This document shows, piece after piece, positions 6,594-45,190 of a stretch of DNA of 64,000 nucleotides (positions are counted from its first letter, which is position 1; each line of letters starts with the position of its first letter). The position numbers and the translations under genes are program-made. This DNA comes from Emticicia aquatilis (GTDB lineage Bacteria > Bacteroidota > Bacteroidia > Cytophagales > Spirosomataceae): NCBI RefSeq assembly GCF_014644295.1, contig NZ_BMKK01000003.1, forward strand, positions 124,001 to 188,000, in the 5' to 3' direction. The notes under the pieces were generated by a model. It did no database searches, had not been told where the DNA came from, and saw nothing but the letters and a program-made list of their open reading frames with translations.

Positions 6594-6610
6594 AGTGTTA
6601 AATTGACACA
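6594..6610. promoter_or_regulatory. Putative regulon operator, copy 1 (upstream of SusC 1)
   Basis: The sequence AGTGTTAAATTGACACA is an imperfect 17-bp palindrome with arms close to TGTGTCAA and TTGACACA around one A. It lies 67 bp upstream of the SusC start and about 90 bp before the AraC start. Five more copies occur in this window, all in promoter regions. Here it sits just downstream of a TAnnTTTG element on the minus strand (6624-6631), a position suited to repression. The binding protein is inferred, not shown. Confidence 0.6.
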
Positions 6611-6623
6611 TTTTTAATGTTCA

Positions 6624-6631
6624 CAAAGCTA
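6624..6631 (-). promoter_or_regulatory. Putative -7 promoter element for SusC 1
   Basis: Read on the minus strand this is TAGCTTTG, an exact match to the Bacteroidota -7 consensus TAnnTTTG. Transcription would begin near 6616, directly before the operator at 6594-6610. The matching -33 TTTG at normal spacing is not clear, so this is a tentative call. Confidence 0.35.
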
Positions 6632-6699
6632 CAACGTGGCCAAAGCGAAAACTTCCAAATTTTAACGGCGGTGAGATTTAGAAGTTTTTCTATTTTAAA

Positions 6700-7635
6700 T
6701 TGGATTATTTTTACATTAGACAAAGGTTATATCGTACAAAAAAATTGAGATTCTTCGCATTAAATAAAGATAAATCAGATGAATTGAGGGCTTTTCATCA
6801 TGTTTTTGAGTTTTCAAGGAAGAAAGTTCAATCAGTACAAACCAATTGGGCAGATTGTAAAAAGAATCCTGGATTAAGGTTTATTTTTATTCAAGAAGGT
6901 AATTTTGAATGGGTAATTGATAATAAAACGATTACGGTTTTCCCGAACGATTTGGTGATTATCTACCCAAATCAAGTATTGCAAAGCAAAATGGAAGCTT
7001 TTGATAACGGCACCTATTATTCTATTACGATTTTGCCCAAACTATTTAATGAAGAAAAATTAGTGTTTGGCGATTGGAGTAGTATTCCTGCAACCGAACA
7101 ACTTCTGATTGGAAAACTATTTTTACTGAATAGAAAATCGGTTTTTCAGAACTTCAAAATTGCTGGCGAGATTCTAAAAAAGATAGAACTCGAAATATTT
7201 GCCACAGAAATAGGCTTCAAAGCCATCGTCAATCACTTGATAGATGAGTTGGTGGTATATTCTACTCGCCAATTGAGCAGAGAAGAAAATCAGCGAAAGC
7301 ATTTCCCCCAAACTTTTCATAAATTTGACCAAATTTTAAGAGAAAATCTTTCGCATCCGTGGACAGTCGAAGAAATGGCTGCGATTTTGGGTTTAGGCAC
7401 AACTACATTAAACGAAAAAATAAGGGCATACTCAGGTTTTTCGCCTTTAAACTATCTAATAAATCTCCGCATTTCGGAGTCAATCCGACTTTTAAAAAAC
7501 ACCGACATCAGCATAACGGATATAGCCTTTGAGATGGGTTTTTATTCTTCTCAACATTTTTCGTCAACATTCAAGAAAATGACAGGGTATTCTCCGAGGT
7601 ATTTTAGAAAAACTCCTGAGTCAAAAGAGGAGTGA
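6700..7635 (+). CDS. AraC-family transcriptional regulator
   Basis: The protein has about 311 residues. The N-terminal half (about 30-110) is cupin-like and would hold the effector (RFIFIQEGNFEWVIDN, DLVIIYPNQ). The C-terminal 100 residues form an AraC/XylS double helix-turn-helix (WTVEEMAAILGLGTTTLNEKI, then SITDIAFEMGFYSSQHFSSTFKKMTGYSPRYFR). There is no ATG before the cupin region: the frame opens after a TAG at 6679 and the best starts are TTG at 6700 or TTG at 6745, so the start is uncertain. It is divergent from SusC 1 and precedes a sugar-acid kinase by 53 bp. It may control both, responding to the imported compound or a derivative. Confidence 0.85.
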   Translation: MDYFYIRQRLYRTKKLRFFALNKDKSDELRAFHHVFEFSRKKVQSVQTNWADCKKNPGLRFIFIQEGNFEWVIDNKTITVFPNDLVIIYPNQVLQSKMEAFDNGTYYSITILPKLFNEEKLVFGDWSSIPATEQLLIGKLFLLNRKSVFQNFKIAGEILKKIELEIFATEIGFKAIVNHLIDELVVYSTRQLSREENQRKHFPQTFHKFDQILRENLSHPWTVEEMAAILGLGTTTLNEKIRAYSGFSPLNYLINLRISESIRLLKNTDISITDIAFEMGFYSSQHFSSTFKKMTGYSPRYFRKTPESKEE

Positions 7636-7688
7636 TATAACATAATGTAAATAAGGAAGGTAGGTTTTATATATTTTGAAGAAGCAAA

Positions 7689-9209
7689 ATGGAATTATTA
7701 ATCACAATTGATATAGGTACAACGGCCGTTAGAATTGTTGCATTCGATTTTAAAGGTGAAAAGAAAGCGTATAAGAAAGGCTCGTATCCGACCTTTCACC
7801 CGCAACCTGATTTTAGTGAGCAAGACCCCGAGCAGGTTTTTATTACGGTTTTGTTTATTCTGAAAAGTTTGCTCAATGAGCTATTTGAGGATAAAAAGAA
7901 TAAAATAAAAGGCATTGTTTTTAGTTCTTCGATGCACAGCGTGTTGCCGATTGATAAAAATGGAACACCACTCGGAAATGCCCTGATTTGGGCAGATAAC
8001 CGTGCAAAAAAAGAAGCTGAGAAAATAAAAAACTCGGCTTTAGGTAAAATTATTTATGAGGCCACGGGTACGCCAATTCATGCCATGTCGCCGTTGGCAA
8101 AAATTGCTTGGATTCGTGAAAACGATGCCGAACGATTCCAAAAAACTTACAAATTCATTTCTTTGAAAGAATATGTTGTTCACCAGTTCACGAACGAATA
8201 TATAATTGATTACAGTTTGGCGTCGGCAACGGGTTTATTTAATATCCGAACTCTAAAATGGGAACAAAATTCTTTGGATATATCGGGTATTAACGAAAAT
8301 TATCTATCCGAAACTTGTCCGATTTACAATTCAGAAGCTAAACTTAAACCTAATTTAGCTAAATCTTTGCGATTATCGGCCAATACAAAAATCATTCTTG
8401 GTAGTACTGATGGCTGTATGGCCACCATTGGAACAGGTGTTTTTGCCGAAGGCCAAGCCACAATTTCAATCAATTCGAGTGGTGCAGTACGAGTATTTGG
8501 GGAAGAAGTACTGAATGATTCAAATCAGCGGTTATTCAATTATGTGCTTGATAAAAATCAGTACATTTCTGGTGGGCCAACCAATAATGCAGGGGTTGTT
8601 TTGGATTGGTTTGTGAGTCAATTTGGAAGTTTTCAGCACGGTAAAGATTTTGAAGAAACCATGCTAAATTCGCTCAATGAAGCACTGCATGTTTCGCCAG
8701 GGGCAGAAGGATTGATTTTCTTGCCTTATCTTTTGGGAGAAAGAGCACCAATCTGGAACTCAAATGCCCGTGGTGCATATTTCGGTATTAATATTAAACA
8801 TGAGCCACGCCATTTCGTTAGAGCCACTATCGAAGGAATAATTTTTGAACTTTTTAGTATCGGTAAAGTTATCGAAACCTATCGAAATATCAATGAAATA
8901 TCGTTGACAGGAACGGTCGTGACTTTGCCGTTTTGGTCAAATTTAGTGGCTGATATTTTTGGCAAAAAGGTAAATATGAACCATTCGGTTAATAGTATCA
9001 ATTTAGGCTCGGCGTTGGTTGGCCTAACCGAGATGGGAGTTTATGCTAATATCGAAGAGGCGGTGAAAAGCATAGTAAAACCCGATAGAATCATTGAACC
9101 CAAGGTTCATCACCATGAATTATATACCAAGTATTACCGTATTTTTAGTCAATTAACTCAAAAATTCAAGGAAGAATTCGATTTAATTGCCGAATTACAG
9201 GCTGGATAA
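7689..9209 (+). CDS. FGGY-family carbohydrate kinase, gluconokinase-like
   Basis: This 506-residue cytoplasmic kinase has the two-domain FGGY/actin-like fold. The N-terminal phosphate-binding loop is TIDIGTTAVRIVAFD. PIHAMSPLAKIAWIRE and YSLASATGLFNI resemble bacterial FGGY gluconokinases, and GSTDGCMATIGTG with the later LTGTVVTLPFWSNLVADIFGKK contribute the C-terminal ATP-binding domain. The probable reaction is ATP-dependent phosphorylation of gluconate or a related sugar acid. It follows the AraC gene on the same strand and is probably cotranscribed with it. A hairpin lies 15 bp after the stop. The alternative is another FGGY substrate such as a pentulose; the family is firm, the substrate less so. 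Confidence 0.8.
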   Translation: MELLITIDIGTTAVRIVAFDFKGEKKAYKKGSYPTFHPQPDFSEQDPEQVFITVLFILKSLLNELFEDKKNKIKGIVFSSSMHSVLPIDKNGTPLGNALIWADNRAKKEAEKIKNSALGKIIYEATGTPIHAMSPLAKIAWIRENDAERFQKTYKFISLKEYVVHQFTNEYIIDYSLASATGLFNIRTLKWEQNSLDISGINENYLSETCPIYNSEAKLKPNLAKSLRLSANTKIILGSTDGCMATIGTGVFAEGQATISINSSGAVRVFGEEVLNDSNQRLFNYVLDKNQYISGGPTNNAGVVLDWFVSQFGSFQHGKDFEETMLNSLNEALHVSPGAEGLIFLPYLLGERAPIWNSNARGAYFGINIKHEPRHFVRATIEGIIFELFSIGKVIETYRNINEISLTGTVVTLPFWSNLVADIFGKKVNMNHSVNSINLGSALVGLTEMGVYANIEEAVKSIVKPDRIIEPKVHHHELYTKYYRIFSQLTQKFKEEFDLIAELQAG

Positions 9210-9223
9210 TGCGTAAAATAAAA

Positions 9224-9256
9224 AATCTAACGTCCGTAAAGTACAGACGTTAGATT
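9224..9256 (+). terminator. Hairpin after FGGY kinase gene
   Basis: Perfect 11-bp arms AATCTAACGTC and GACGTTAGATT flank an 11-nt loop, starting 15 bp after the kinase stop. There is only a weak T-rich stretch after it. It also lies between converging genes. The remaining intergenic sequence to 9371 shows nothing further. Confidence 0.5.
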
Positions 9257-9371
9257 AGCTTTGTATGAAACAAATTTACTTAAATAAATTTAAAGTATGT
9301 AAATATTCCTGTTGATGGTTTATTATCACTTTAAAAATATTTCCCATTTTTAACCTAATCATAATTCAATA

Positions 9372-11183: not shown

Positions 11184-11197
11184 GTTATTTTCTACAA

Positions 11198-14100
11198 TTA
11201 AAATTTAAGATTTACACCTAAAGTAAACTGACGCACAGGTGGGTTATTAAGGTTTACGCTGATAACACGGTTGAAGTTACCTCCTTGAATGGTGTTTCCG
11301 TATCCATTACCTTCTGGGTCTATGGCAAGTTTAGCTTTAACTAATGGTGAGTAAATAATAAAAGGATTGGTTGCGTTGAGATAAATACGAGCCGACGAAA
11401 TACCTATTTTGCTAAGTCCTTTAGTTGGAACCGTATAACCTAAGTTGATACTTCTCATTTTAATGAATGACCCATCTTGGTATTGAGTAGTCGAAGTAAA
11501 ATCTCTTACGCCGCCACCTGCATTCGGTTTAGGGAACGCATTAGTCGGATTAGTTTCTGTCCAGTAATCCATAACCAATTGGTTTGAACGACCTTGGTTC
11601 AAAAATCCAAATCCAGAGCCACCACCCGAAGTACCTGATAAATAAGGAACCAACACTTTCATACCCATACGAGCGTAGGTAACGATAGATAAATCAAAAC
11701 CTTTGAAACTGAATCGATTAGTCAATCCACCTTCCCACTTAGGTTGGAAATTTCCGATAATTTTACGGTCAGCGGCATCAATTTTTCCGTTTCCATCAAC
11801 ATCTTCAACTCTGATTTCGCCTGGTACTTGTACAGGAGAAGTTTGTTTGCCCAACGTTCCATTTTCTTTATCTGATAATTGCCAGATACCGATTTTATTA
11901 TAATCATAGATTACAGTAAGAGGCTGACCAACAAACCAGAAATTACCTTTGTTGTCTAATTCGCTTGGAGTTGTAAGTTGCGTAATTTTTTCACGATTGA
12001 AGAAATAGGTTACATCAGCACTCCAATTGAAGCCACCTTTGTTTCTAAGGATATCAAAAGTTAAAGTCGATTCAAAACCTTTACCCTGAGTTTTTCCTAA
12101 GTTTTTCAGAGTTGAACCAGCACCATTACTTTGAGGAAGATTTACCGAAAGCAAAATATCTTTTGTATTTTGTTTGTAAACATCAAATGAACCCGTGATT
12201 CGGTTATTGAATAAACCAATCTCCAAACCAAAATCTGATTGCGAAGTCGATTGCCACCCTAAATTACTGGCAGGTAAGCTTGTTACGGTATAGGCCAGTG
12301 CTTGTCCAGCAGCGGTTGGACCAAAGTTATAGTATCCAGACGAAAGTGCTCCTAAAGTAGCATAAGCACCTACGTTACGGTTTCCTGAAATACCCCAGCC
12401 ACCTCTAAGTTTTAAGTTTGATAAAAAGCTTAGGTCTTTCATAAATGGTTCGTCGATGATATTCCAACTCAAACCAATTGCTGGGTAGTTAAAATACTGA
12501 TTACCAGGCGATAAAGTTGAAGAACCATCTCTACGGAACGTTGCCGTAAGGGTATATCTACTGTTGAATGTATAATTTAGGCGTGCCATATATGACAATA
12601 AACCAGTTTCGCCAAAACTACCGCTACCTGTTGGTTGGCCTGATGCCAACGAAAAGTTGGCTGTTTGAATATAATCAGCAGGTACGCCTTTTACATTAAA
12701 GCTACTTCCCAAGTTATGGTTTTTAGTAACTTCATAGAGAGCTGTAAAACCTATTTTATGCTTTTCGGCAAATACTTTATCATAGTACAATAAATGCTGG
12801 AAATTGACATCCCAATATTCAGTATTTCTAACATCAGCATTTGATACGTTTTGTTCTGTTCCTGAATTTACAAAGGTATTTGGTGGGCCATAACCATTGA
12901 ATGAAACCTGACTAAAGTTAAGACCTGCATTGAAACGATATTTTAGACCATCTAAAATGTTTACCTCCGCATACAAACTATTGAAAGTTCTAATCGAACG
13001 CTCATTTGAAAGAATGTCATCTCCACGTGAGATTAAAGTAAGTGGGCTTACTGCCTGAGCTTCGATTGTTCCTTTCTTAGGGTTTAAATTTACACTGCCA
13101 TCTGCATTATATGCTGGTACTAATGGCGATAAACGCACTAATTCGGTTGGAATACCGCCACCCGCTGGGTCATTTCTACGGGTCATGGTGTTAATTGTAT
13201 TTAAACCAACTTTTACACGTTTGCCAATCTTTTGGTCAAGCGTTGCACGGATGTTCATACGGTCAAAATTCTGATTCGGCATAATACCTGTTTCGTTGAA
13301 ATAACCGATTCCCATACCATACTGAGTGTTTTCAACCCCACCCTGCAAACCAAGCTGGTGACTTGTATTGAACCCTTGCTTGTAGAGTAAATCTTGCCAA
13401 TCAGTTGAAACCCCTGCGGCTAAATTTGCTCTTTCCTCTTCAGTTAATGGATAAGCAGTAGTTCCAGCTCCTTGTGTGTTATAAGCAGCCGAAAGCTCTT
13501 TGAATTTTGCATATTGTTCGCCATTCATCACGTTATATTTGCCCATGATGCTTGTTACGCCATGATACCCATCATAAGTAAGAACAGGCTTACCAACTTT
13601 TCCTCTTTTAGTTGTGATTAGAATCACACCACCCGCACCTCTTGAACCAAAAATGGCCGTTGCAGAAGCATCTTTCAAGATTTCGATGTTTGAAATATCA
13701 TCTGGATTAATATCATTCAAACCGCCGTAAGGAATTCCATCAACAACCACAAGTGGGCCGTCAAGTCCATCTCCATTACCAGTTGTTAATGAGCGGTTTC
13801 CACGAATACGAATCGAAGCTTGGCTACCTGGAGTAGAACCATTACTAACGATTGAAACCCCTGCCGCTCTACCTTTTAAAGTATTTAAAATGTTTGGAGC
13901 TGGAACTTCTTTTAAGGTCGCTTCCGAAACCGAAACAACCGAACCAGTAATATCTCTTTTCTTCTGAGTACCATAACCCACAACTACTACCTCGTTTAAC
14001 TCTTTTCCAGTACCGACATTTAAAGCGACATCAATATTGGTACGGCTACCCACCAAAACTTCTTGGGTTTCGTAACCAATAAAGCTAAACACTAAAGTTT

Positions 14101-14332
14101 CGCTTGCGGATGCTTCAATTTTATAATTACCCGAAGCATCTGCAATTGAGCCTCTACTTGAACCCTTCACAGTAACACTTACACTTGGCAGAAATTCATT
14201 GTTAGAAGCATCTCTAACTTTCCCGCTGATAAGTTTTGCTTGGGCAAGGAGTGATAGGGGGCTAAGTAATAGCAATAGGGCTGCTATACTCCACCTCATC
14301 GTTTTTTGTTTCGTTCTGTAGTTTTTTGTCAT
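11198..14332 (-). CDS. SusC/RagA-family TonB-linked outer-membrane transporter 2
   Basis: A 1044-residue TonB-dependent importer. A signal peptide (SIAALLLLLSPLSLLAQA) follows a short cytoplasmic stretch, with an alternative start at Met12. Then come a carboxypeptidase-D-like domain (ISGKVRDASNNEFLPSVS), the signature LNEVVVVGYGTQKKRDITGS, a plug (LKDASATAIFGSRGAGGVIL) and a barrel ending FTLGVNLKF. It works with the SusD downstream. The 323-bp upstream region holds a likely promoter, one copy of the 17-bp palindrome and a 40-bp inverted repeat, shared with the divergent LacI-type gene. This suggests dual control by that regulator and by the arabinose-type regulator. Confidence 0.95.
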   Translation of the reverse strand: MTKNYRTKQKTMRWSIAALLLLLSPLSLLAQAKLISGKVRDASNNEFLPSVSVTVKGSSRGSIADASGNYKIEASASETLVFSFIGYETQEVLVGSRTNIDVALNVGTGKELNEVVVVGYGTQKKRDITGSVVSVSEATLKEVPAPNILNTLKGRAAGVSIVSNGSTPGSQASIRIRGNRSLTTGNGDGLDGPLVVVDGIPYGGLNDINPDDISNIEILKDASATAIFGSRGAGGVILITTKRGKVGKPVLTYDGYHGVTSIMGKYNVMNGEQYAKFKELSAAYNTQGAGTTAYPLTEEERANLAAGVSTDWQDLLYKQGFNTSHQLGLQGGVENTQYGMGIGYFNETGIMPNQNFDRMNIRATLDQKIGKRVKVGLNTINTMTRRNDPAGGGIPTELVRLSPLVPAYNADGSVNLNPKKGTIEAQAVSPLTLISRGDDILSNERSIRTFNSLYAEVNILDGLKYRFNAGLNFSQVSFNGYGPPNTFVNSGTEQNVSNADVRNTEYWDVNFQHLLYYDKVFAEKHKIGFTALYEVTKNHNLGSSFNVKGVPADYIQTANFSLASGQPTGSGSFGETGLLSYMARLNYTFNSRYTLTATFRRDGSSTLSPGNQYFNYPAIGLSWNIIDEPFMKDLSFLSNLKLRGGWGISGNRNVGAYATLGALSSGYYNFGPTAAGQALAYTVTSLPASNLGWQSTSQSDFGLEIGLFNNRITGSFDVYKQNTKDILLSVNLPQSNGAGSTLKNLGKTQGKGFESTLTFDILRNKGGFNWSADVTYFFNREKITQLTTPSELDNKGNFWFVGQPLTVIYDYNKIGIWQLSDKENGTLGKQTSPVQVPGEIRVEDVDGNGKIDAADRKIIGNFQPKWEGGLTNRFSFKGFDLSIVTYARMGMKVLVPYLSGTSGGGSGFGFLNQGRSNQLVMDYWTETNPTNAFPKPNAGGGVRDFTSTTQYQDGSFIKMRSINLGYTVPTKGLSKIGISSARIYLNATNPFIIYSPLVKAKLAIDPEGNGYGNTIQGGNFNRVISVNLNNPPVRQFTLGVNLKF

Positions 14333-14431: not shown

Positions 14432-14463
14432 CGAATGTATATGTAGGAATTTGGTTTTTCAAA
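14432..14463 (-). promoter_or_regulatory. Putative Bacteroidota-type promoter for SusC 2
   Basis: On the minus strand TTTG (14460-14463) and TACATTCG (14432-14439; one mismatch to TAnnTTTG) are separated by 20 bp, near the normal spacing. The start would be roughly 90 bp before the SusC ATG. The -7 element overlaps a small inverted repeat ATACATT-N6-AATGTAT (14421-14440). The 17-bp palindrome lies directly upstream of the -33 element. Confidence 0.45.
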
Positions 14464-14468: not shown

Positions 14469-14485
14469 AGTGTCAAATTGACACT
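14469..14485. promoter_or_regulatory. Putative regulon operator, copy 2 (upstream of SusC 2)
   Basis: AGTGTCAAATTGACACT is a perfect palindrome (8-bp arms around one A), the most symmetrical copy of the shared motif in the window. It is 137 bp upstream of the SusC 2 start and 13 bp from the larger inverted repeat. If the promoter at 14432-14463 is right, this copy lies upstream of the -33 element, unlike copy 1. Confidence 0.6.
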
Positions 14486-14498: not shown

Positions 14499-14538
14499 AA
14501 ACTATCGGAAACGATTTCGGAATCGTTTCCGATAGTTT
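14499..14538. promoter_or_regulatory. 40-bp perfect inverted repeat, probable operator of the adjacent LacI-type regulator
   Basis: Two 18-bp arms (AAACTATCGGAAACGATT and its exact complement) are separated by TCGG. Each arm with the centre contains a GGAAACGATTTC / GAATCGTTTCC element resembling the GAAA-CG-TTTC core of LacI/GalR operators. It lies 118 bp before the LacI-type start and 167 bp before the SusC 2 start, so one bound complex could control both. Nearby sequence to 14655 shows no gene. A terminator is less likely because it is midway between two divergent genes. Confidence 0.6.
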
Positions 14539-14655: not shown

Positions 14656-15819
14656 ATGCAAAAATGTATAAAATGTGGGAAAGTTGATGGAATTATTAGA
14701 GCTGGTTTCTTGAGAGGTCAACAGCGGTATCATTGCAAGCTGTGTAGTCATTTTTTCGTGCTAAAATCAAATCAACCACAGCCAACCAAAAGCAATAATC
14801 CAATAACCATAGTTGATGTAGCTAATTTTTTGGGAGTTTCTATATCTACGGTATCACGAGCCTTAAACAATAAATCTGATATAAATCAGAAAACCAAAGA
14901 TGCCATCATTCAAGCAGCTATTGATTTAGACTACAAACCTAATTTCTTAGCACAAAGTCTTAACAAAGGAAGCACCCATACGATTGGTGTGATAGTTCCT
15001 GACGTAGGACACCCATTTTTTGCGTCGGTTTTGGCAGGAATTCAGCAAGTTGCCAATAATACTGGATATAGAATTATTGTTTGCCATTCAAACGAATCTT
15101 ACCGAATAGAGGTGTTGAATACTGAAACGCTCATGGCATGTAGGGTTGATGGTATTCTGATTAGTCATTCTAAAGAAACGACCGAATTTGACCACATAAA
15201 AAAAATAACAGAAAAGGGCATTCCTGTAGTTCAGTATGATAGGGTCAACTCTGAGTTAAATACATCAAATATTATTCATCAGGATTTTAAAGGTGCTTTC
15301 AATTTAGTAGAACATTTAATTTCGCAGGGATGTAGGCGAATCGGAGTAATGTCTGGTCCAAAAGAAATGCAAATCTGCAAAACACGCATTGAAGGCTATA
15401 AGGCCGCTCTTCAAAAACATGGTATTGAAATTAACAACGATTATATCGTACATTCAAATATTTCATACGGTGAAGGAGAGCAGATATTGAATTATTTTAT
15501 AGGATTAGAAAATCCACCTGATGGGATATTTGCGATAGTTAATAGAAATGCAATTGAAATGATGAAAGCTGCCAAAGAAAAGGGCATTAAAATTCCTGAT
15601 GAACTGGCATTTGCGGGTTTTGGCGACGATATTCTTGCACAATATTTTGAGCCTCCACTTACTGTTTATAATCACTTTCCAACGAGAATAGGGGAGATAG
15701 CCATTAGAATGCTGATTGAAAATATTAATAATAAAAGCAATTTTAATCCTTATAGTAAAATCGTGGAAGGGGAGCTGATTATTAGAAAATCCTCTTTAAA
15801 AAAAGGTAGTTGTTTATAA
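14656..15819 (+). CDS. LacI/GalR-family regulator with N-terminal zinc-ribbon extension
   Basis: The protein has 387 residues. Residues 1-35 form a C4-x2-C7 ... C27-x2-C30 zinc ribbon with GFLRGQQRYHCKLC, the pattern of the zinc-binding domain of IS1/IS1595-type transposases. Residues about 50-105 are a normal LacI helix-turn-helix (TIVDVANFLGVSISTVSRAL) with hinge, followed by a periplasmic-binding-protein-like effector domain (GVIVPDVGHPFFASVLAGIQ; FAGFGDD). The ribbon and LacI parts share one uninterrupted frame, so this is a real fusion of about 50 residues beyond the usual length near 340. It is divergent from SusC 2 and probably controls it and itself through the inverted repeat at 14499-14538. 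Confidence 0.88.
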   Translation: MQKCIKCGKVDGIIRAGFLRGQQRYHCKLCSHFFVLKSNQPQPTKSNNPITIVDVANFLGVSISTVSRALNNKSDINQKTKDAIIQAAIDLDYKPNFLAQSLNKGSTHTIGVIVPDVGHPFFASVLAGIQQVANNTGYRIIVCHSNESYRIEVLNTETLMACRVDGILISHSKETTEFDHIKKITEKGIPVVQYDRVNSELNTSNIIHQDFKGAFNLVEHLISQGCRRIGVMSGPKEMQICKTRIEGYKAALQKHGIEINNDYIVHSNISYGEGEQILNYFIGLENPPDGIFAIVNRNAIEMMKAAKEKGIKIPDELAFAGFGDDILAQYFEPPLTVYNHFPTRIGEIAIRMLIENINNKSNFNPYSKIVEGELIIRKSSLKKGSCL

Positions 15820-18447: not shown

Positions 18448-19146
18448 TTAACAACCTTGCCCATAATAAGCGTTTTTTCCGTGTTTACGCTCGTAATGTT
18501 TCATACGTAAGGTATCTTTTATTCTTGGCGTGTTGGGGTTAATTTGCAGCGTTAGCATCGCCATTTTGGCTACTTCTTCCAACACTGCGGCATTATATAC
18601 CGATTTTTCGGCATTTTTTCCCCACGTAAAAGGCCCGTGATTTTGTAGTAAAACCATTTCGACTTCTTTATGCGAAAGTTTTTTTTCAGTAAAACAATCA
18701 AAGATTTGATTACCCGTTTCAAACTCGTAATCTCCTTCAATCATCTCATCGGTAAGGACTTTTGCACACGGAATATCTTGGTGAGTATGGTCGGCGTGAG
18801 TTGTACCAAAAATCGGAATATCCATACCTGCCTGAGCCCATGCTACCGCATACGTACTGTGCGTGTGCGTGATTCCACCAATATCTTCCCAATTTTTGTA
18901 TAATTGAGCATGAGTTTTGGTATCGGAAGATGGTCGCATGTTTCCTTCAACAACTTTGGCATCATAGTCCATAATTACAATGTCAGTCGGTTTCAGAAAC
19001 TCATAAGGCACACCGCTTGGCTTGATAGCAAAAACGCCTTTTTCTCGGTCAACTGCACTGACATTCCCGAAAGTAAATAAGACCAAACCCAACTTTGGAA
19101 GCATCATGTTAGCCTCAAAGCATTCTTCTTTTAATGATTGATACAT
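18448..19146 (-). CDS. araD: L-ribulose-5-phosphate 4-epimerase
   Basis: A 232-residue class-II aldolase-fold enzyme converting L-ribulose-5-phosphate to D-xylulose-5-phosphate. It contains the zinc-binding His cluster (GGITHTHSTYAVAWAQ, GTTHADHTHQDIPC), GVPYEFLKPTDIV for phosphate binding, and LLQNHGPFTWGK with the third metal His. The C-terminus KHGKNAYYGQ is characteristic of AraD. It lies between mgsA and the transaldolase on the same strand. Length matches E. coli AraD (231). It completes the araA-araB-araD pathway in this cluster. Confidence 0.96.
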   Translation of the reverse strand: MYQSLKEECFEANMMLPKLGLVLFTFGNVSAVDREKGVFAIKPSGVPYEFLKPTDIVIMDYDAKVVEGNMRPSSDTKTHAQLYKNWEDIGGITHTHSTYAVAWAQAGMDIPIFGTTHADHTHQDIPCAKVLTDEMIEGDYEFETGNQIFDCFTEKKLSHKEVEMVLLQNHGPFTWGKNAEKSVYNAAVLEEVAKMAMLTLQINPNTPRIKDTLRMKHYERKHGKNAYYGQGC

Positions 19147-19737: not shown

Positions 19738-21228
19738 CTATTTGTAGGCAACATCATTAAATCTAAGCTCATTTTTTAGTCCACGAATGGTGGTATCTTT
19801 ATCAATAACCACCAGTTCAACATCGAGTATTTCGGCCAAATCTTCCATGTATTCGGTCGTAAGGTTCTGACTATAAACTGTGTGGTGAGCTCCTCCCGCT
19901 AAAAGCCATGCTTGTAGCCCGACTTCCATATTCGGCTGAGGTTTCCATAAAGCACGTGCCGTTGGCAGTTTTGGGAACGCTTCCGTTACTTCAATAGCTT
20001 CTACTTCATTGACTATCAGGCGGAAACGATTACCCAAGTCAACCAACGAAACATTTAAAGCAGGCCCAGCAGCAGCATTGAAAACCAAACGAACAGGGTC
20101 TTCTTTGCCACCAATTCCGAGTGGATGTATTTCACATTTTACTTCATTAGCTGCAATCGTAGGGCAAATTTCGAGCATGTGCGAACCCAAAACCATTGGA
20201 TTTGCGGGGTCAAAATGGTACGTATAATCTTCCATAAATGAATTTCCACCTTTCATGCCGCTGGCCATTACTTTTAGGATATGCACCATAGCCGAAGTCT
20301 TCCAGTCTCCTTCGCCGCCATATCCATAACCTGCTGCCATCATTCGCTGCGAACCAATACCAGGAAGTTGACGCATTCCGTGTAGGTCTTCAAATGTATT
20401 TGTGTAGGCCGAAAAACCACCATCTTCTAAGAATGCTTTCAATCCCAGTTCTATACGAGCAGCTTCGTATAAAGAGCTTCTTTTTTCTCCGTTTTTAGTA
20501 AGAGAAGGCATCAAAGCATAAGTATCTTCGTATTCTTGAATCAATCTGCCAATTTCTGCATCTGAAATTTGATTGATTATTTGTACTAAATCTCCCACGG
20601 CAAACGTATTGACCGAAAACCCAAATTTCATTTCGGCCGCAACTTTATCACCATCAGTAACCGCTACTTGACGCATATTATCGCCAAAACGAGCAACTTT
20701 CATGGTTTGCATCTTATATTTTGCTACCGCAACACGAGTCCAAGTATTGATTTTTTCGTGAACCGATGCTGCTTGCCAATGCCCAACCACTACTTTGCGG
20801 TTCATTCGCATCTTCGATAGTATATGCCCAAATTCACGGTCGCCATGAGCCGACTGATTAAGGTTCATGAAATCCATGTCAATGTCAGCATACGGAATAT
20901 CACGATTGAACTGGGTATGCAGATGCAAAAGCGGTATTTGTAGGGCATTTAGGCCTCTAATCCACATTTTTGCGGGCGAAAACGTGTGCATCCAAGTAAT
21001 TATTCCCACGCAGTTTGGCGTAACGTTGGCTTCTTTGCAAATCGTCAGGATTTCTTCGGGAGTTTTTACTACGGGTTTAAAAACAACTCTTACAGGAATT
21101 GTCGAAGAATTATTAAATGAGTCGGTGATAATTTTGGAATGCTCATCAACCTGACGGAGCGTTTCTTCACCGTATAAATGTTGGCTTCCAGTTACGAACC
21201 AAACTTCATAAGATTTTAAATCAAGCAT
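19738..21228 (-). CDS. araA: L-arabinose isomerase
   Basis: A 496-residue enzyme converting L-arabinose to L-ribulose in the cytoplasm. Recognisable blocks include YEVWFVTGSQHLYGEETL at the N-terminus, GIITWMHTFSPAKMWI, LHLHTQFNRDIPY, GLKAFLEDGGFSAYTNTFEDL with an active-site Glu, and FMEDYTYHFDP plus the His-rich GGAHHTVYSQ near the end. Length equals typical AraA (about 500). Its 5' side faces a broken DUF6934-like gene on the other strand. No copy of the operator lies directly upstream, so it may depend on transcription coming from araB. Confidence 0.98.
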   Translation of the reverse strand: MLDLKSYEVWFVTGSQHLYGEETLRQVDEHSKIITDSFNNSSTIPVRVVFKPVVKTPEEILTICKEANVTPNCVGIITWMHTFSPAKMWIRGLNALQIPLLHLHTQFNRDIPYADIDMDFMNLNQSAHGDREFGHILSKMRMNRKVVVGHWQAASVHEKINTWTRVAVAKYKMQTMKVARFGDNMRQVAVTDGDKVAAEMKFGFSVNTFAVGDLVQIINQISDAEIGRLIQEYEDTYALMPSLTKNGEKRSSLYEAARIELGLKAFLEDGGFSAYTNTFEDLHGMRQLPGIGSQRMMAAGYGYGGEGDWKTSAMVHILKVMASGMKGGNSFMEDYTYHFDPANPMVLGSHMLEICPTIAANEVKCEIHPLGIGGKEDPVRLVFNAAAGPALNVSLVDLGNRFRLIVNEVEAIEVTEAFPKLPTARALWKPQPNMEVGLQAWLLAGGAHHTVYSQNLTTEYMEDLAEILDVELVVIDKDTTIRGLKNELRFNDVAYK

Positions 21229-21874: not shown

Positions 21875-21901
21875 GCATTTTATTGTTTCTCAATAAAATG
21901 C
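21875..21901. terminator. Hairpin overlapping the araB stop codon, between converging genes
   Basis: Perfect 11-bp arms GCATTTTATTG and CAATAAAATGC flank a 5-nt loop. It covers the last codons of araB on the minus strand and follows the 49-codon ORF on the plus strand. No strong T-run follows on either side. If it stops araB transcription, araA needs its own promoter. Confidence 0.4.
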
Positions 21902-23514
21902 CCCAAACTTTGATATTTAAGATATAGTTTCTGATAAATTTCTACGTACTCAGCTCGTGGTTCGTAATGAGCATCAAAGCCCGAACCCATTGCTTTTTGT
22001 GCTGCTTGGAGGGTCGGATAAACGCCCGCAGCTACTGAAGCATTCATGGCGGCACCTAATGCACAAGCTTGGTCTGAACTTGCTACCTTGATGGGCATAT
22101 TTAGCACATCCGAAAGGGTTTGCATCACAAACGGCGACTTTTTGGCCACTCCGCCAATGGCAATCACTTGTTTGATTGGCACACCTTCGTTGATAAATCT
22201 ATCTACAATCGCTTTCGAGCCGAAGGCCGTCGCTTCAACAATCATTTTAAAAAGTTTCACGGCATCTGTTCCTAAATTCAGACCCATCAGTGAGGCTTTT
22301 AGCTCATGATTGGCATCAGGCGTACGACGTCCGTTAATCCAATCGGTGGCAACTGGGTCATTTTCGGAAACGGGTAGGAGAGAAGCCTTTTCTGATAAAT
22401 ACGGAATCAGTTTTTGAGCTAATTCATCGGCCGCTTTTTCGCCCAAAAGTTCACGTACTGGCTCGGTAATAACTCGCTGAAACCAAGCATAATAATCGCC
22501 GTAGGCAGATTGCCCTGCTTCCATTCCGAGCATATTTGGAATGATAGAGCCATCGACTTGACCACAAATGCCTTTGATTAGTAAATGTCCGATTTCTTCG
22601 TTGGGTGCAATGAGCATATCGCAGGTAGAAGTTCCCATTACTCGCACGAAATCATAAGGCTCGATTTCGGCTCCAACTGCTCCCATGTGGCAGTCAAACG
22701 CCCCAACTCCGATGATTACGTTTGTAGAAAGCCCGAGTTTTGTTGCCCATTCTTCCGAAATCTGACCCATTGATTGGTCAGATGTAAAAGTATTTCGGAA
22801 AAGACGTCCTCGTAAACCAGTTAGAAGTGGGTCGAGTTTTGTGAGAAATTCTTCCGATGGCAAGCCTTCAAATTCTTCGTGCCACATGGCTTTGTGACCC
22901 GCTGCACAGCGAGAACGCTTCAGGGTCAGTGGGTTTGTATTTCCAGTCAAAACTGCCGAAATCCAATCGCAATGCTCTACCCACGAAAAGGCTTTTTCAC
23001 GAATACTTTCATCAACTCTGAGTGTGCGGAGAATCTTTGCCCAAAACCACTCTGATGAATAAATTCCACCTACATATTTGGTAAAATCTACCTCCCAACC
23101 GTGAGCCAAATGATTGATTTCTTCGGCTTCGGCATTGGCGGTGTGGTCTTTCCAGAGAATAAACATTCCGTTTGGATTGTCCGCAAAATCGGGCAATAAT
23201 GCCAAAGGCGTGCCATTTTCATCAACAGCTACTGGGGTTGAGCCAGTAGTATCGACCGAAATACCAACAATGTTTTTCTTGATTTCCTCCGAAACACCAT
23301 CTAATGCTCCTTTGATAGCACCTTCGAGCCCTTCGAGATAGTCGAGCGGGTGTTGTCTGAACTGTGAAATGGAAGGATTGCAGAATAAACCCTGTTTCCA
23401 TCGTTCATAATAATGTACGGCCGTACCGATATTTTCGCCAGTTTGGTTATTTACTACCAATGCTCGCACCGAATCAGTTCCGTAGTCGATTCCTATTGTG
23501 AATGTTGTTTTCAT
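21880..23514 (-). CDS. araB: Ribulokinase
   Basis: A 544-residue FGGY-family kinase that phosphorylates L-ribulose to L-ribulose-5-phosphate. Diagnostic ribulokinase blocks are IGIDYGTDSVRALVV at the N-terminus, ISVDTTGSTPVAVDENGTPLAL, FILWKDHTANAEAEEIN, LKRSRCAAGHKAMWH and VMGTSTCDML, with IAIGGVAKKSPFVMQ in the C-terminal ATP domain. Length is that of ribulokinases rather than the roughly 500 of xylulokinases. An operator copy lies 7 bp before the start codon, and the putative Nudix regulator is immediately upstream on the same strand. It begins the arabinose operon. Confidence 0.95.
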   Translation of the reverse strand: MKTTFTIGIDYGTDSVRALVVNNQTGENIGTAVHYYERWKQGLFCNPSISQFRQHPLDYLEGLEGAIKGALDGVSEEIKKNIVGISVDTTGSTPVAVDENGTPLALLPDFADNPNGMFILWKDHTANAEAEEINHLAHGWEVDFTKYVGGIYSSEWFWAKILRTLRVDESIREKAFSWVEHCDWISAVLTGNTNPLTLKRSRCAAGHKAMWHEEFEGLPSEEFLTKLDPLLTGLRGRLFRNTFTSDQSMGQISEEWATKLGLSTNVIIGVGAFDCHMGAVGAEIEPYDFVRVMGTSTCDMLIAPNEEIGHLLIKGICGQVDGSIIPNMLGMEAGQSAYGDYYAWFQRVITEPVRELLGEKAADELAQKLIPYLSEKASLLPVSENDPVATDWINGRRTPDANHELKASLMGLNLGTDAVKLFKMIVEATAFGSKAIVDRFINEGVPIKQVIAIGGVAKKSPFVMQTLSDVLNMPIKVASSDQACALGAAMNASVAAGVYPTLQAAQKAMGSGFDAHYEPRAEYVEIYQKLYLKYQSLGHFIEKQ

Positions 23515-23520: not shown

Positions 23521-23537
23521 TGTGTCAAATTAACACA
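23521..23537. promoter_or_regulatory. Putative regulon operator, copy 3 (upstream of araB)
   Basis: TGTGTCAAATTAACACA has a TGTGTCAA arm and a TTAACACA arm around one A, only one mismatch from a perfect palindrome. It sits in the 67-bp gap between the Nudix-type regulator and araB, ending 7 bp before the araB ATG. This site links the shared motif to arabinose control. Confidence 0.65.
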
Positions 23538-23581: not shown

Positions 23582-24280
23582 TTATCTCATCGAGTCAGAA
23601 ATAAAATAGTGGAAGGCATTAAATTTATTTTGGTATTTCTCTTTATCAAGACGATAAAGTATTGCTTTTTTTGTGGCTGATTGCTGATTTTTTTCACCAG
23701 TATCTATCAGTAGATTTGTTGAAAGAATTTTACGGCTAAAGTTTCTTCTATCAAGGGGTATCTGATAAATAGCTTCGTAAAGTTTTTGTAGTTGTGGAAT
23801 CGTGAATTTTTCTGGCAAAAGTTCAAAACCAATTGGGTGTAAAGCCGCTTTGTATCTGAGTCTTTCGAGAGCTACATTTACCATTTCATTATGGTCAAAA
23901 ATAAGATTTGGCTTATTTTCGATGTTTATCCAAAACGCATTTTGTGCTTTTACGGCATCTTGGTCATGAGCATGAATATTAATCAAAGCAAAGAAACAAA
24001 CAGAAAGTGTGCGTTCAACTGGGTCACGATTTACTTTTCCAAAAGTCTGAATTTCTTCAAAATAAATATCTTTCAGGCCTGTTAAATCGTAAAGAATTCG
24101 ATTTGTTGCCACTTCAAGGTCTTCATTTTCTTCTAAAAAGCCACCCATCAATGACCACTTTCCTTTTTCGGGTTCGAAGTTTCGTTTTACCAACAAAAGT
24201 TTTAGGGCTTCTCCATCAAAACCAAAAACGATACAATCAAGTGCAACAAGTATTCGGGTTGAATGGTGGTACTTTTCCAT
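23582..24280 (-). CDS. Nudix-fold transcriptional regulator, AraR/NrtR-like
   Basis: This protein of about 232 residues starts at the ATG at 24280 (a TTG directly before it also fits). Residues about 8-150 form a Nudix domain, but the Nudix box is degenerate: GGFLEENEDLEVATNRILYDL has lost the catalytic Glu pair, as expected for a sensor rather than an enzyme. Residues about 155-232 look like the winged helix of the NrtR/AraR group (FTIPQLQKLYEAIY, LDRRNFSRKIL). In Bacteroides thetaiotaomicron, AraR of this class represses arabinose genes and is released by L-arabinose. Its position next to araB supports the same role. It is the best candidate to bind the 17-bp palindromes. Confidence 0.85.
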   Translation of the reverse strand: MEKYHHSTRILVALDCIVFGFDGEALKLLLVKRNFEPEKGKWSLMGGFLEENEDLEVATNRILYDLTGLKDIYFEEIQTFGKVNRDPVERTLSVCFFALINIHAHDQDAVKAQNAFWINIENKPNLIFDHNEMVNVALERLRYKAALHPIGFELLPEKFTIPQLQKLYEAIYQIPLDRRNFSRKILSTNLLIDTGEKNQQSATKKAILYRLDKEKYQNKFNAFHYFISDSMR

Positions 24281-24538
24281 CAAGTCTCTGTAAATAATTA
24301 GGTTCTGATTTGTTAATTTTCAATTCGTAAAATAACAAATACCGTGCGATTTTAGACATTGACTTTGCATGAGTTACGAATTAATTTAGTATGCAAAGAC
24401 TGACAATAACATGACTAAATTGTGTAAAAGTAGTATATATTTTGTTTTTGGACAATAATATTTGCTCAATATTTGAAAAACATACTTTCCGACTTGAAAA
24501 GTATGTTTTCCTCAAAATATTAAAAATATGGTTGTTGA
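24281..24538. other. Intergenic region between the arabinose cluster and the hydrolase operon
   Basis: This 258-bp AT-rich stretch holds the start region of the Nudix-type regulator and, at its far end, the terminator of the hydrolase operon. An imperfect spaced repeat (ACTTTGCAT ... ATGCAAAG, about 24351-24393) may be regulatory. No full copy of the 17-bp operator and no convincing ORF were seen. Confidence 0.5.
24478..24508 (-). terminator. Rho-independent terminator of the hydrolase operon
   Basis: On the minus strand, perfect 11-bp arms AAACATACTTT / AAAGTATGTTT flank a 9-nt loop and run into a T-tract. It lies 31 bp after the stop of the GH51 gene and marks the end of the long operon that begins with GH95. 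Confidence 0.75.
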
Positions 24539-38934: not shown

Positions 38935-38959
38935 TGCAATCTTTGTTTATTCGTTAATT

Positions 38960-41514: not shown

Positions 41515-41531
41515 TGTGTCAATTTAACACA
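41515..41531. promoter_or_regulatory. Putative regulon operator, copy 4 (upstream of GH95 operon)
   Basis: TGTGTCAATTTAACACA is nearly perfectly palindromic around a central T. It lies 99 bp before the GH95 start, in the 298-bp gap that otherwise shows no gene. Its right edge overlaps a minus-strand TAnnTTTG element, a position that fits repression of the whole hydrolase operon. Confidence 0.65.
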
Positions 41532-41537: not shown

Positions 41538-41670
41538 AATGGATTTATTTATAAATTTTATACAAAAAAACATAAATTTTGTAGGGCAGATAAAATCTGG
41601 ACCTTGTTACGAGAAAGTTTTTCAAGAATTTATCATGGTTTTGTCTTTGTAGTCAATTACATCTTTCCAA

Positions 41671-41701
41671 AAAGCATTGTGTAAGTATATCACAATGCTT
41701 T
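41671..41701 (-). terminator. Rho-independent terminator after the ASPIC/UnbV gene
   Basis: On the minus strand perfect 11-bp arms (AAAGCATTGTG / CACAATGCTTT) with a 9-nt loop end in a short T-run. It lies 14 bp after the stop of the FG-GAP lipoprotein gene and separates it from the GH95 operon. Confidence 0.7.
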
Positions 41702-41714
41702 AGAAATAGATATT

Positions 41715-44700
41715 TTATTTCTTGAAAACTTCTGCACTTGAACTCAGTTTATAAATTTGGCTTTTCCCCGAATTGGCCAACACAAGCAAAGTTTTGGATT
41801 TATTTATAAAAATAGCATTCCTTACGTCACTAATCAGATTTAGGCCACTCGTTTCGTAGTTCACTACACTAAATCCTCCCTTGCCATCACCGAGCAAGAT
41901 AGTGCCTCTTGAAGCATCTTGTCGGCCTTGGTGGGCTTCGTTCGCAAAAAAGTTTCCGCCTAACAACAAATCAATGTTGCCATCGTGGTTGAAATCTTCG
42001 GTAATTATCGAAAAGATGGGCGATTGTTGGGCTTGCCACGGAAGTTTAGCTAAATTAAAGTCTCCTTTACCGTTATTGATAGCTATTGATGAAGTTAATT
42101 CATAAGCTTCCTTTCTGATAACTCCATCTTTTTCAGTTTCGGAGAATAAATCATCAAAAATCACAGAAGAATAATCTTTATAAGTAGTATATTTTTTTCG
42201 GAATGAGTTGATTTGTAGGTTCAGATTCTCTCTTGGATGAATCGGATATAATTTCCCTTTAATGTATTGTCCCATGATTGGGTCAATTCTGCCATTGCTA
42301 TCGAAATCTTTGGCCAGTAGCGTTACTGGTTCTTGTGCGTTTGCTTGATAAAATGAGTTTTTCCCTTCGTTTCCTAAAACCAAATCAAGTAGGCCATCAT
42401 TATTTATATCGGCGGCTTGTACTTTATTCCACCATCCTTCGGTGTGTTCTTTTTGCTGAAGCGAAAATTTGCCTCGATTATTTTTTAAGATTGTCAATGG
42501 CATCCATTCACCCACAAGCACTAATTCTTTAAAGTTATCCTTGTCAATATCAATCACAACGGCATCGCAAACCATGCCAAGATTTTGCAAAAATGGAGCA
42601 ACTTGTTGCGTAATATCGGTGAATTTTCCTTTATCGTTTCTAAGTATATAGCTCTTCGGATTTGTAGGATATTGATTGGGAATAATTCTTCCGCCGATAA
42701 AAATATCAAGGTCGGCATCATTATCAAAGTCGAAAGTTTCAACGACATGGCTGCTTACATTCAGCTTTGGTAAATCATTGGCGAGAGTAAATTTACCTTT
42801 ACCGTCGTTTTTCCAAAGCTGGGGTTGAAATGCCTCTGCTGTCTCCATTGGGCGTTCGCATCCACCACCTGCCAAAATCAAATCTTTGTCGCCATCTTGG
42901 TCGGCATCAAAAAAGTGAATGGCACCAACTTCAATATACTTACTGGTCGGTATCTCCATTATTTTCTCAAATTTACCTTGCTTGGTTTGGGTATAAATTT
43001 GGGTTTCGTTGCCCATGTAAGCCCCACCAATGGCAATGTCTTCCAAACTATCGCCATTAACATCGGCTTTCGTTACGGCTGGACCAAATCTCGAAAGCAT
43101 CTTGTGCAAAGTGGCCAACTCATTGAAATCATTGAAGTTTGATTCTTTGTGTTCGTAATCAAAAACATTCTCAACAAGCTGAAAAATAGGATTTGTCTTG
43201 AAATGCTGCTTTACACGTTCTTTAGCATCAGCATAATTCAAGGTTAGCGTTTTAATTGAATTATCAATATTTACTTTTTTCTGAACCTTGCCGTCGGGCC
43301 AAGTCACAATCAAAGAATCAATTCTTTTAGCATTTCCTTTACCAATCACTATGTTTTTTGACATCGAAGAAAGATAACCTCTGACTGGAAAATGCTCGAA
43401 ATATAGTTGCTCACCATTTATCCAAGCCGAAACCTTCGCACCAATGCCATTGATATTGCTCTTTTGCCCAATGAATTGAATTTTTAGGCTTTGATTTTGG
43501 GTTTGTTTTTCAGTATTATTCCTAAAAATCGAAGCTTCACTATCAATATTATTTACAATCAAATCGAGGTCACCGTCGTTATCGAGGTCTGCAACGGCCG
43601 AGCCGTTGGCATACGAGAGCTCGTCTAAGCCCCAAGTGTCTGATACATTCTCAAAATCAAGGTTGTTTTTATTTCGATAAGCATAGTTTTTAAGCTGAAT
43701 TTCGGGTACTTTTTCAAGTAATTTCAAGCGATTTTCCTCCCTTGCTTCATTAGAACCAAACATACCTTGGCTTCTGTAATAGCTGATAAAATCGAGGTCA
43801 GTCACATTTTTTCTGTAACCATTGGAAATAAAAATATCTTTTAATCTATCGTTATCGAGGTCACAGAGGAGGGTACTCCAACTCCAGTCAGTTTTGGCGA
43901 CCCCTGCCAAAAGCCCATTTTCACTAAACTGTGGAATCCCGCCTCGATTTCCCAAATTAACTTGCAGCATATTACGCATATATTGTAGCTGAAAGTTATA
44001 AGGAGGCTTTATGCTCATTTCTTTTTTGTCATAATCATGCTTACCGAGCATCTGCTTTTGTCTTTCGTTTTCTTCGGGGAGCATATCAAGCTGAAAAATA
44101 TCCACTTTCCCATCTTGATTAATATCGGCAGCATCAACACCCATACCCGACATGGCAGTGTGAGGCATGGCTTCTTTCAAAACATTTGTAAAAGTGCCAT
44201 TGCCGTTATTTTGGTAAAGTACATCGGAGCTTAAAAAATCATTCGAGCAATAAATATCTGGTAAGTTGTCATTATTATAATCAGACACCACAACTCCCAG
44301 CCCGAGGCCTTCATAAAGTATGCCTGCTTCTTTTGAAACATCTTTAAAAACGGGATGGCCATCAACAAGACCGTTGTTTTGAAAAAGTTTGCTGGTTGAT
44401 GGGTGCGAACCATCATCAACCCGTGGTCTTAGATAACTTGGATTTTGGGTATCAGGCGATGTACTCAATAAAAAAACATCGAGGTCTCCGTCGGTATCAT
44501 AATCAAGAAAAGCGGCTTGGGTAGTATAGCCAGCATCGTCAAGTCCATAAGCAGCGGCTTGTTCTTTAAATGTCGGATTTTTAGTTTTTTGATTGATGAA
44601 AAGTAGATTTCGAGTTTCGCTCATAGTCGGATGATATGCTACCGAAATGTATAAATCGTCCCAACCATCATTGTTTATATCTACCACCGAAACCCCATTG

Positions 44701-45026
44701 CACCATCTATTGGTTGTCAGACCAGCCGTTTTTGTGACTTTCTCAAATTTGAAATTTCCCTTATTTAGATACAATTCACAACTGGCCTGATTTCCTGTAA
44801 AAAACACATCTTCGAGACCATCATTGTTGAAATCGCCAATGCCAACACCCCCTCCATTATAGAAATTTGTGAATGTAAAAGCATTCAATTTTTCATTGGC
44901 TTTTAGAGAGTTTATGAAATCAATATTTGTGGCTGAACTCGACACTTTTTCAAACAGTTTGTCAGACTTATGGCCACAGCCAGACAAAAACGCAATCAGA
45001 ATCGAGATGGTTAAAAGGAATTTCAT
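41715..45026 (-). CDS. Large ASPIC/UnbV and FG-GAP repeat lipoprotein (CRTAC1-like)
   Basis: 1103 residues with a lipoprotein signal (lipobox FLSGC). About fourteen FG-GAP/VCBS repeats carry calcium-loop motifs such as DFNNDGLEDVFF, DINNDGWDDLYI, DLDNDGDLDLIV, DADQDGDKDLIL and DFNHDGNIDLLL. An ASPIC/UnbV domain (about 520-600: GIGAKVSAWINGEQLYFEHF, DSLIVTWPDGKVQKKV) lies between the two repeat blocks. It should fold as calcium-stabilised beta-propellers at the cell surface. The function of such lipoproteins is unknown. It is divergent from SusC 3 across a region with two operator copies, so it may belong to the same regulon, perhaps in the place of a surface glycan-binding protein. Confidence 0.9.
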   Translation of the reverse strand: MKFLLTISILIAFLSGCGHKSDKLFEKVSSSATNIDFINSLKANEKLNAFTFTNFYNGGGVGIGDFNNDGLEDVFFTGNQASCELYLNKGNFKFEKVTKTAGLTTNRWCNGVSVVDINNDGWDDLYISVAYHPTMSETRNLLFINQKTKNPTFKEQAAAYGLDDAGYTTQAAFLDYDTDGDLDVFLLSTSPDTQNPSYLRPRVDDGSHPSTSKLFQNNGLVDGHPVFKDVSKEAGILYEGLGLGVVVSDYNNDNLPDIYCSNDFLSSDVLYQNNGNGTFTNVLKEAMPHTAMSGMGVDAADINQDGKVDIFQLDMLPEENERQKQMLGKHDYDKKEMSIKPPYNFQLQYMRNMLQVNLGNRGGIPQFSENGLLAGVAKTDWSWSTLLCDLDNDRLKDIFISNGYRKNVTDLDFISYYRSQGMFGSNEAREENRLKLLEKVPEIQLKNYAYRNKNNLDFENVSDTWGLDELSYANGSAVADLDNDGDLDLIVNNIDSEASIFRNNTEKQTQNQSLKIQFIGQKSNINGIGAKVSAWINGEQLYFEHFPVRGYLSSMSKNIVIGKGNAKRIDSLIVTWPDGKVQKKVNIDNSIKTLTLNYADAKERVKQHFKTNPIFQLVENVFDYEHKESNFNDFNELATLHKMLSRFGPAVTKADVNGDSLEDIAIGGAYMGNETQIYTQTKQGKFEKIMEIPTSKYIEVGAIHFFDADQDGDKDLILAGGGCERPMETAEAFQPQLWKNDGKGKFTLANDLPKLNVSSHVVETFDFDNDADLDIFIGGRIIPNQYPTNPKSYILRNDKGKFTDITQQVAPFLQNLGMVCDAVVIDIDKDNFKELVLVGEWMPLTILKNNRGKFSLQQKEHTEGWWNKVQAADINNDGLLDLVLGNEGKNSFYQANAQEPVTLLAKDFDSNGRIDPIMGQYIKGKLYPIHPRENLNLQINSFRKKYTTYKDYSSVIFDDLFSETEKDGVIRKEAYELTSSIAINNGKGDFNLAKLPWQAQQSPIFSIITEDFNHDGNIDLLLGGNFFANEAHQGRQDASRGTILLGDGKGGFSVVNYETSGLNLISDVRNAIFINKSKTLLVLANSGKSQIYKLSSSAEVFKK

Positions 45027-45148
45027 TGTTATATAAATTGAAATAGATTGTGATTTAAATTAATTATTTCAAGAAAAAGTTCGCCTAATGTCAAAATAGT
45101 ATTATTTAATAAAAAAAAAGTAACATTTTCTTTTTTTGAAAACTATTA

Positions 45149-45165
45149 TGTGTACATTTGACACG
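45149..45165. promoter_or_regulatory. Putative regulon operator, copy 5 (upstream of SusC 3)
   Basis: TGTGTACATTTGACACG is an imperfect palindrome related to the shared motif. It contains TACATTTG (45153-45160), an exact match to TAnnTTTG on the plus strand, so a protein bound here would cover the likely -7 element of SusC 3. Confidence 0.55.
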
Positions 45166-45173
45166 TATTTATT

Positions 45174-45190
45174 TGTGTTACAATGACACA
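45174..45190. promoter_or_regulatory. Putative regulon operator, copy 6 (upstream of SusC 3)
   Basis: TGTGTTACAATGACACA keeps both outer arms (TGTGT and ACACA) and starts 25 bp after the start of copy 5. Two neighbouring copies suggest tighter or cooperative control of the main transporter operon, and possibly of the divergent FG-GAP lipoprotein gene. Confidence 0.5.

Follow-up and report, generated by a model that had tools for sequence, protein, structure and literature searches.

The six copies of a 17-bp palindrome found in the window (the whole 64,000-nucleotide stretch of Emticicia aquatilis DNA that was analysed) are most likely operators of one protein, the NrtR-family Nudix-fold repressor AraR predicted at 23582-24283; we put the probability of this reading at about 0.9. 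AraR regulons of NrtR type are known in Bacteroides and Prevotella (PMC4666351), and the window is a predicted new-lineage case of this regulon (Emticicia, Spirosomaceae). The accessible parts of the open-licence literature yielded no description of an AraR regulon in Spirosomaceae. The arabinose regulon of gut Bacteroides and Prevotella would thus be extended to this family (order Cytophagales), with nine operators rebuilt from sequence only, and some of the promoters suggest that hemicellulose use may be governed by two signals, a design that can be tested.

Location of the palindromes

The original prediction listed six near-copies of the palindrome, all in promoter regions and none inside a gene, and it is borne out on both points. 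A pattern search allowing up to 3 mismatches recovers all six at the positions given in Table 1, with 1-3 mismatches each. When both strands are counted, the window contains 10 strand-matches, compared to a mean of 0.27 and a maximum of 2 in 100 shuffles. All six copies lie outside every open reading frame of at least 120 aa (such DNA represents 8.4% of the window), at 6-136 bp from the neighbouring starts, which were mechanically called.

The genes concerned include araB, araA and araD, three SusC/SusD systems and a series of glycoside hydrolases. An unexpected neighbour, methylglyoxal synthase (19206-19670, 226 bits), is encoded between araA and araD. A large FG-GAP/ASPIC-UnbV protein (41715-45026) is divergent from SusC3, and the tandem pair of AraR sites lies between the two genes, likewise in Emticicia sp. 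C21.

Table 1. Features of the window and strong sites elsewhere in the genome (bits of operators and sites, score with the relatives' matrix; bp, distance to the mechanically called start).
Feature	Coordinates	Strand	Remarks
SusC1, TonB-dependent transporter	3405..6527	-	SusD1 at 1842-3392
AraR operator (predicted)	6594..6610	.	SusC1 / AraC-FGGY-kinase divergent promoter region; 24.1 bits; 66 bp to SusC1
SusC2	11198..14332	-	SusD2 at 9372-11183
Candidate -7 element (TACATTCG, one off TAnnTTTG), SusC2 promoter	14432..14439	-	
Candidate -33 element (TTG), SusC2 promoter	14460..14462	-	same offset from AraR site in 7/9 aligned promoters, one base nearer in 2
AraR operator (predicted)	14469..14485	.	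composite SusC2 promoter, divergent from LacI gene; 19.0 bits; genome-scale E 0.945; 136 bp to SusC2
LacI-type operator (predicted)	14505..14520	.	centre 35.5 bp from AraR operator centre
Second, overlapping LacI-type operator (predicted)	14517..14532	.	centre 47.5 bp from AraR operator centre
LacI-family regulator	14656..15819	+	N-terminal CxxC...CxxC zinc-ribbon-like segment
araD, L-ribulose-5-phosphate 4-epimerase	18448..19146	-	
araA, L-arabinose isomerase	19738..21228	-	
araB, ribulokinase	21880..23514	-	NF003154, 727.9 bits
AraR operator (predicted)	23521..23537	.	between araR and araB; 26.6 bits; 6 bp to araB
AraR	23582..24283	-	Nudix-like sensor domain and NrtR winged helix; proposed binder of all six palindromes
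AraR operator (predicted)	41515..41531	.	before GH95-GH43-GH43-GH8-esterase genes; 26.6 bits; 98 bp to GH95
AraR operator (predicted)	45149..45165	.	upstream member of tandem pair before SusC3; weakest site, 16.5 bits; genome-scale E 1.62; 86 bp to SusC3
AraR operator (predicted)	45174..45190	.	downstream member of SusC3 tandem pair, 25 bp from first; 25.2 bits; 61 bp to SusC3
SusC3	45252..48359	+	SusD3 at 48381-49928
Strong outside site	C3:189728		before GH10 xylanase; 24.0 bits
Strong outside site	C3:207138		before SusC/SusD-SusC/SusD-GH10 gene run, xylan SusC/SusD operon; 22.2 bits
Strong outside site	C9:117222		before GH51 arabinofuranosidase with SSF symporter; 21.0 bits

The regulator and its relation to BtAraR

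A Nudix regulator of the AraR/NrtR class had been proposed beside the araB site, and the protein encoded there fits this description. It matches NUDIX (3.1e-9), NrtR_WHD (6.1e-26) and AraR_C (8.7e-11), and its best solved relative is BtAraR (BT0354) of Bacteroides thetaiotaomicron (5bs6; phmmer 6.7e-66, 95 identical residues out of 217 aligned). Its sequence is 100% identical to AraR of a MAG named Emticicia sp. HJF.15. Structures of BtAraR are available (PDB 5BS6/5DD4/5DDG/5DEQ), and PMC4666351 describes an apo-dimer that is bound to DNA, whose winged helices rotate upon arabinose binding so that the operator is released.

Ten residues of the arabinose pocket are named in the same paper (PMC4666351), and nine of them are kept in the window protein (Y5, R34, F36, G47, G48, F49, R86, F129 and H131), V92 being replaced by T. 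The genome encodes seven NrtR_WHD proteins, and in each of the six others this set is incomplete. The Nudix catalytic box of AraR is impaired: the glutamates of its RE and EE parts are replaced (GGFLEENEDLEVATNRILYDLTGL).

Regarding DNA contacts, PMC4666351 describes K179, R180, N181, K184, K204 and R205 as fully conserved in AraR orthologues, whereas two of the six (R180 and N181) are identical in the window protein, K179R, K184R and R205K being conservative changes and K204 being replaced by T. This mismatch lowers strict identity more than functional likeness, since the published conservation is based on Bacteroides and Prevotella proteins.

In a tree of 59 NrtR-family rows, from which XylR (BT0791) was left out, AraR falls in a well-supported group of 24 rows. 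It shares with BtAraR a group of 53 rows which also includes a paralogue from contig C17 of the same genome; the support of this larger group is 88/91, which is not starred, and it carries a long-branch warning (BtAraR with L219). The NrtR family also includes XylR, its second pentose branch in Bacteroides; the window protein, for its part, is associated with ara genes.

The regulon resembles that of BtAraR (PMC4666351): an NrtR-family Nudix domain with a winged helix, arabinose-contact residues, a GTGT-N7-ACAC operator, ara catabolic genes, SusC/D and arabinan/xylan hydrolase operons as targets, and tandem sites about two turns apart. A comparison with the published BtAraR motif had been proposed together with the original prediction, and the window operators do have the same GTGT-N7-ACAC geometry. 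The tandem sites are separated by 25 bp before SusC3 here, versus 24 bp as counted from the B. theta oligonucleotide (PMC4666351). The differences concern the lineage (Spirosomaceae), the gene order (araR-araB here, araMPRDAB there), the substitutions K204T, K179R and V92T, and the pairing with LacI-type operators that is seen here.

Sites in the whole genome

A genome-wide scan had also been suggested as a check. The pattern GTGTNANNNTNACAC occurs at 14 places in the 6.75-Mb genome, versus 4 for the reversed control, and GTGTYANNNTRACAC at 8 places versus 0; 6 of the 14 places are chance-like. The remaining ones are five window sites (45149 falls outside the GTGTNANNNTNACAC pattern) and three strong sites beyond the window, two past its right end and one on another contig (Table 1). 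The mechanical reading frame of the GH51 gene starts upstream of the site at C9:117222; it is more likely that the true start is a later ATG, downstream of the called one. We discarded the places C2:771514, C3:27702, C5:426469, C8:13295, C8:198531 and C23:4986, which look like chance matches and have no visible link to arabinose or hemicellulose.

The sites were scored with a matrix built from 27 distinct sites of relatives, our own genome being left out. It is important to note that these sites were picked by their GTGT-N7-ACAC core, so that agreement in the core is built in and only the centre and the flanks are independent. The six window sites score from 16.5 to 26.6 bits, and the next best site of the window 9.3 bits. 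In 20 simulated 64-kb controls, the top score per run ranged from below 7 to 23.4 bits, the latter value being reached in one run. One simulated 6.75-Mb genome contained 6 sites of at least 16 bits and none of at least 20 bits; 206 kb of real sequence, in stretches chosen partly because they hold sites, contained seven of at least 20 bits. Two further candidate sites are C5:171836 (20.9 bits), before an alpha/beta hydrolase, and C23:12732 (19.7 bits), which is flanked by an MFS transporter and a large protein that matches no Pfam family.

A non-exhaustive genome-scale model search, which scored 150 of 5,099 first-look candidates, gives E values of 0.004-0.008 for four of the six window sites. 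In that search the sites at 14469 (E 0.9) and 45149 (E 1.6) have no significance when each is taken alone, and the three outside sites have E values of 0.06, 0.6 and 1.8.

Proposed regulation and composite promoters

By homology to BtAraR, we propose that AraR binds these sites, represses the corresponding genes and responds to arabinose in this organism. In the absence of L-arabinose, the AraR dimer would occupy the GTGT-N7-ACAC sites, located in or beside the promoter, and prevent transcription. Binding of L-arabinose in the Nudix-like domain would turn both winged helices so that they no longer line up with the DNA, and the operator would be released. The genes set free would be araBAD, the three SusC/SusD uptake systems and the GH95/GH43/GH8 genes in the window and, elsewhere, GH10, a fourth SusC/D operon and the GH51-SSF pair. 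At SusC2 and GH10, a LacI-family regulator would occupy the promoter together with AraR, from an operator 35.5 bp further upstream. Since both types of operator are present on the same promoter, two sugar signals probably act on SusC2 and GH10.

The LacI-type motif TCGGAAACGWTTYCGR is found exactly in this genome only at 14505, 14517 and C3:189764, the latter before GH10. Only exact matches stand out; the counts at up to 2 mismatches (30 and 28) are no higher than those of the control (25 and 28). One LacI operator is centred 35.5 bp from the centre of the AraR operator in both the SusC2 and the GH10 promoters.

A search of 222 genomes of the family for AAACGWTT followed, after a gap of 10-40 bases, by the AraR core returns 12 matches in 11 genomes, compared to 1 for the reversed control. 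The gap is exactly 24 in five of them (GH10 of this genome, G647, G650, G266 and G218). It is 36 for SusC2, because the printed match begins at the other LacI operator. The four gap-24 matches of other genomes lie between LacI and SusC genes, the SusC being nearer to SusC1 in three cases and to SusC2 in one. As for the six remaining matches, two are beside SusC-like or GH43/GH127 genes and four are next to genes without match to the window proteins.

Conversely, a LacI homologue is present in 105 genomes of the family, of which the 30 best loci were read and G218 was added. An AraR-type site lies upstream of the LacI homologue in 7 of the 30 best loci (8 with G218) and is absent from 23. The LacI core is recognised in five of these eight loci, each time with one spacing of 35.5 bp; in G685 a changed operator occupies the same place, and none is clear in G684 and G687 (in G687, the gene beyond the intergenic region matches GH95 and not SusC). 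At LacI/SusC promoters the arrangement is conserved in Emticicia and in one other genus, and its constant spacing there can be explained by shared descent; it is seen again before GH10 here, the one composite case at a different gene.

TAnnTTTG is the -7 box of Bacteroidota. A TAnnTT[TC][GA] box is found at the matching place (±1 bp) in all nine aligned promoters, with a TTG 19-21 bp away; both elements are on the gene side of the AraR site at a nearly constant offset. In the window, both boxes occur at those offsets at 1 of 3,821 intergenic positions; the nine promoters are mutually related and the offsets were read from these sequences themselves. No -7 or -33 box can be assigned with confidence at the non-composite sites.

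In all nine promoters, the candidate -33 box closely follows the AraR site, whose centre is 40.5-41.5 bp from that of the -7 box. Such a position, about 41 bp upstream of the candidate -7 box, could suit an activator, and it may be that at the composite SusC2 and GH10 promoters AraR activates transcription or assists LacI instead of acting as a plain repressor. We consider this unlikely, since BtAraR releases its DNA on binding arabinose while its targets rise, as expected for a repressor (PMC4666351).

The chances are even, in our opinion, that the composite promoters follow one rigid two-regulator layout, in which a LacI-type operator is followed at 35.5 bp by the AraR operator, then by the -33 box and, 19-21 bp further on, by the -7 box. 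Contact or phasing of both proteins would then produce a joint response of hemicellulose uptake and xylanase expression to arabinose and a second sugar. The original prediction had assigned a single arabinose signal to the transport systems, the hydrolases and the catabolic genes. This interpretation is supported by the kinship of the regulator, the geometry of the operator, the motif beside araR and its recurrence before target genes in two congeners, with the refinements that the regulon extends past the window and that the SusC2 promoter also bears LacI-type operators, so that the promoters need not share one signal alone. A comparable case is the dual control of B. theta polysaccharide utilization loci by HTCS and AraR, where AraR is likewise accompanied by a second regulator at promoters; here, in contrast, the latter belongs to the LacI family and the spacing is fixed at 35.5 bp (PMC4666351 and PMC3878776). 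No description of a LacI-AraR composite operator was found in the accessible open-licence literature (including PMC3878776, PMC5507952 and PMC10766802).

Association of the palindrome with araR in relatives

AraR matches were obtained in 154 of 292 genomes of the order, and the 30 best loci (our own genome and 29 relatives) were examined. The exact GTGTN7ACAC is present within 350 bp of araR in 29 of them, downstream of the gene in 25 and upstream in 8 (some have both); in the thirtieth (L075), it is 503 bp from araR and about 100 bp before araB. In the same 30 windows, the reversed pattern is found in 2 and four other palindromes of the same shape in 0, 0, 1 and 2. The exact palindrome also occurs in the 20-kb regions of 18 of 19 relatives (15 of these genomes are among the 30), and AraR locus L098 (G248) has none in 20 kb. 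Counts of the strict motif per genome, which matches in 36 of 58 genomes, do not separate genomes with and without AraR; it is matched also in some genomes that lack a close AraR.

In Emticicia sp. C21 (G266), sites are found in the LacI/SusC intergenic region (whose SusC is nearer to SusC1, 44%) and before GH43; two more lie between araR and araB and a further one precedes araR on its upstream side, and the same 25-bp tandem pair separates SusC3 from its divergent neighbour. In G272, a 25-bp tandem pair precedes araB and a 17.5-bit site precedes GH95. Sites thus recur before several matching target genes in two congeners.

These observations bear on the idea that the palindrome is the operator of another of the seven NrtR_WHD proteins, such as the closest of them, encoded on contig C17. 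It shares 53% identity with AraR and has a similar recognition helix (DKRNFSR vs DRRNFSR), and in G263 the sequence AGTGTAAAATTGACACT (L237:7714) lies about 220 bp from the same AraR-like paralogue, by a sugar-kinase-like gene. On the contrary, the C17 protein lacks F36 and F49, its gene adjoins a photolyase-related gene and a single exact palindrome occurs within its 20 kb, at a distance of about 4 kb; in the family, the gene has no exact palindrome beside it at 6 of 7 paralogue loci studied, whereas the ara-linked copy has one in 29 of 30. We regard this explanation as very improbable.

That each palindrome is bound by its own local regulator, the likeness being coincidental, has almost no probability: two palindromes do lie in divergent promoter regions adjoining such genes (AraC-type at 6700, LacI-type at 14656), but one and the same sequence is found at five promoter regions, whose neighbouring regulators differ or are missing, and for LacI another operator candidate (TCGGAAACG..) is present upstream of 19 of the 23 homologues that have no AraR-type site. 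We rejected the palindromes as LacI or AraC sites, LacI having its own operator candidate.

Paralogues of AraR and the LacI-family regulator

The AraR-like paralogue is found at G000:C17:25778 (L079:9757-10464), and in other families its sister group has members next to ara genes (L234, L235 and L241). The gene by the L237 paralogue is weakly similar to an FGGY kinase (22%), and this paralogue may read a like operator.

We infer both the occupancy of the LacI-type operators and the effector of the LacI-family protein. A LacI paralogue on contig C2 (L285:6883-8034 and 8021-8640) has a double like operator with the same 12-bp stagger as 14505/14517, and it is divergent from oxidoreductases, UxuA and GH67. 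The proximity of UxuA and GH67 to a paralogue with such an operator suggests a glucuronoxylan-related effector for LacI, and the second sugar of the composite promoters would perhaps be a glucuronoxylan product.

The N-terminal CxxC...CxxC segment of LacI, which precedes the helix-turn-helix, resembles the zinc ribbon of IS1/InsA; the match to NCBIfam NF050000 (3.9e-4, 20.9 bits) is below the cut-off of 28. We found nothing in open-licence papers about a LacI regulator that bears a zinc ribbon. The CxxC...CxxC pattern is present in 29 of 31 LacI loci (L255-L284, L252 and the window), and the two other alignments start past the segment.
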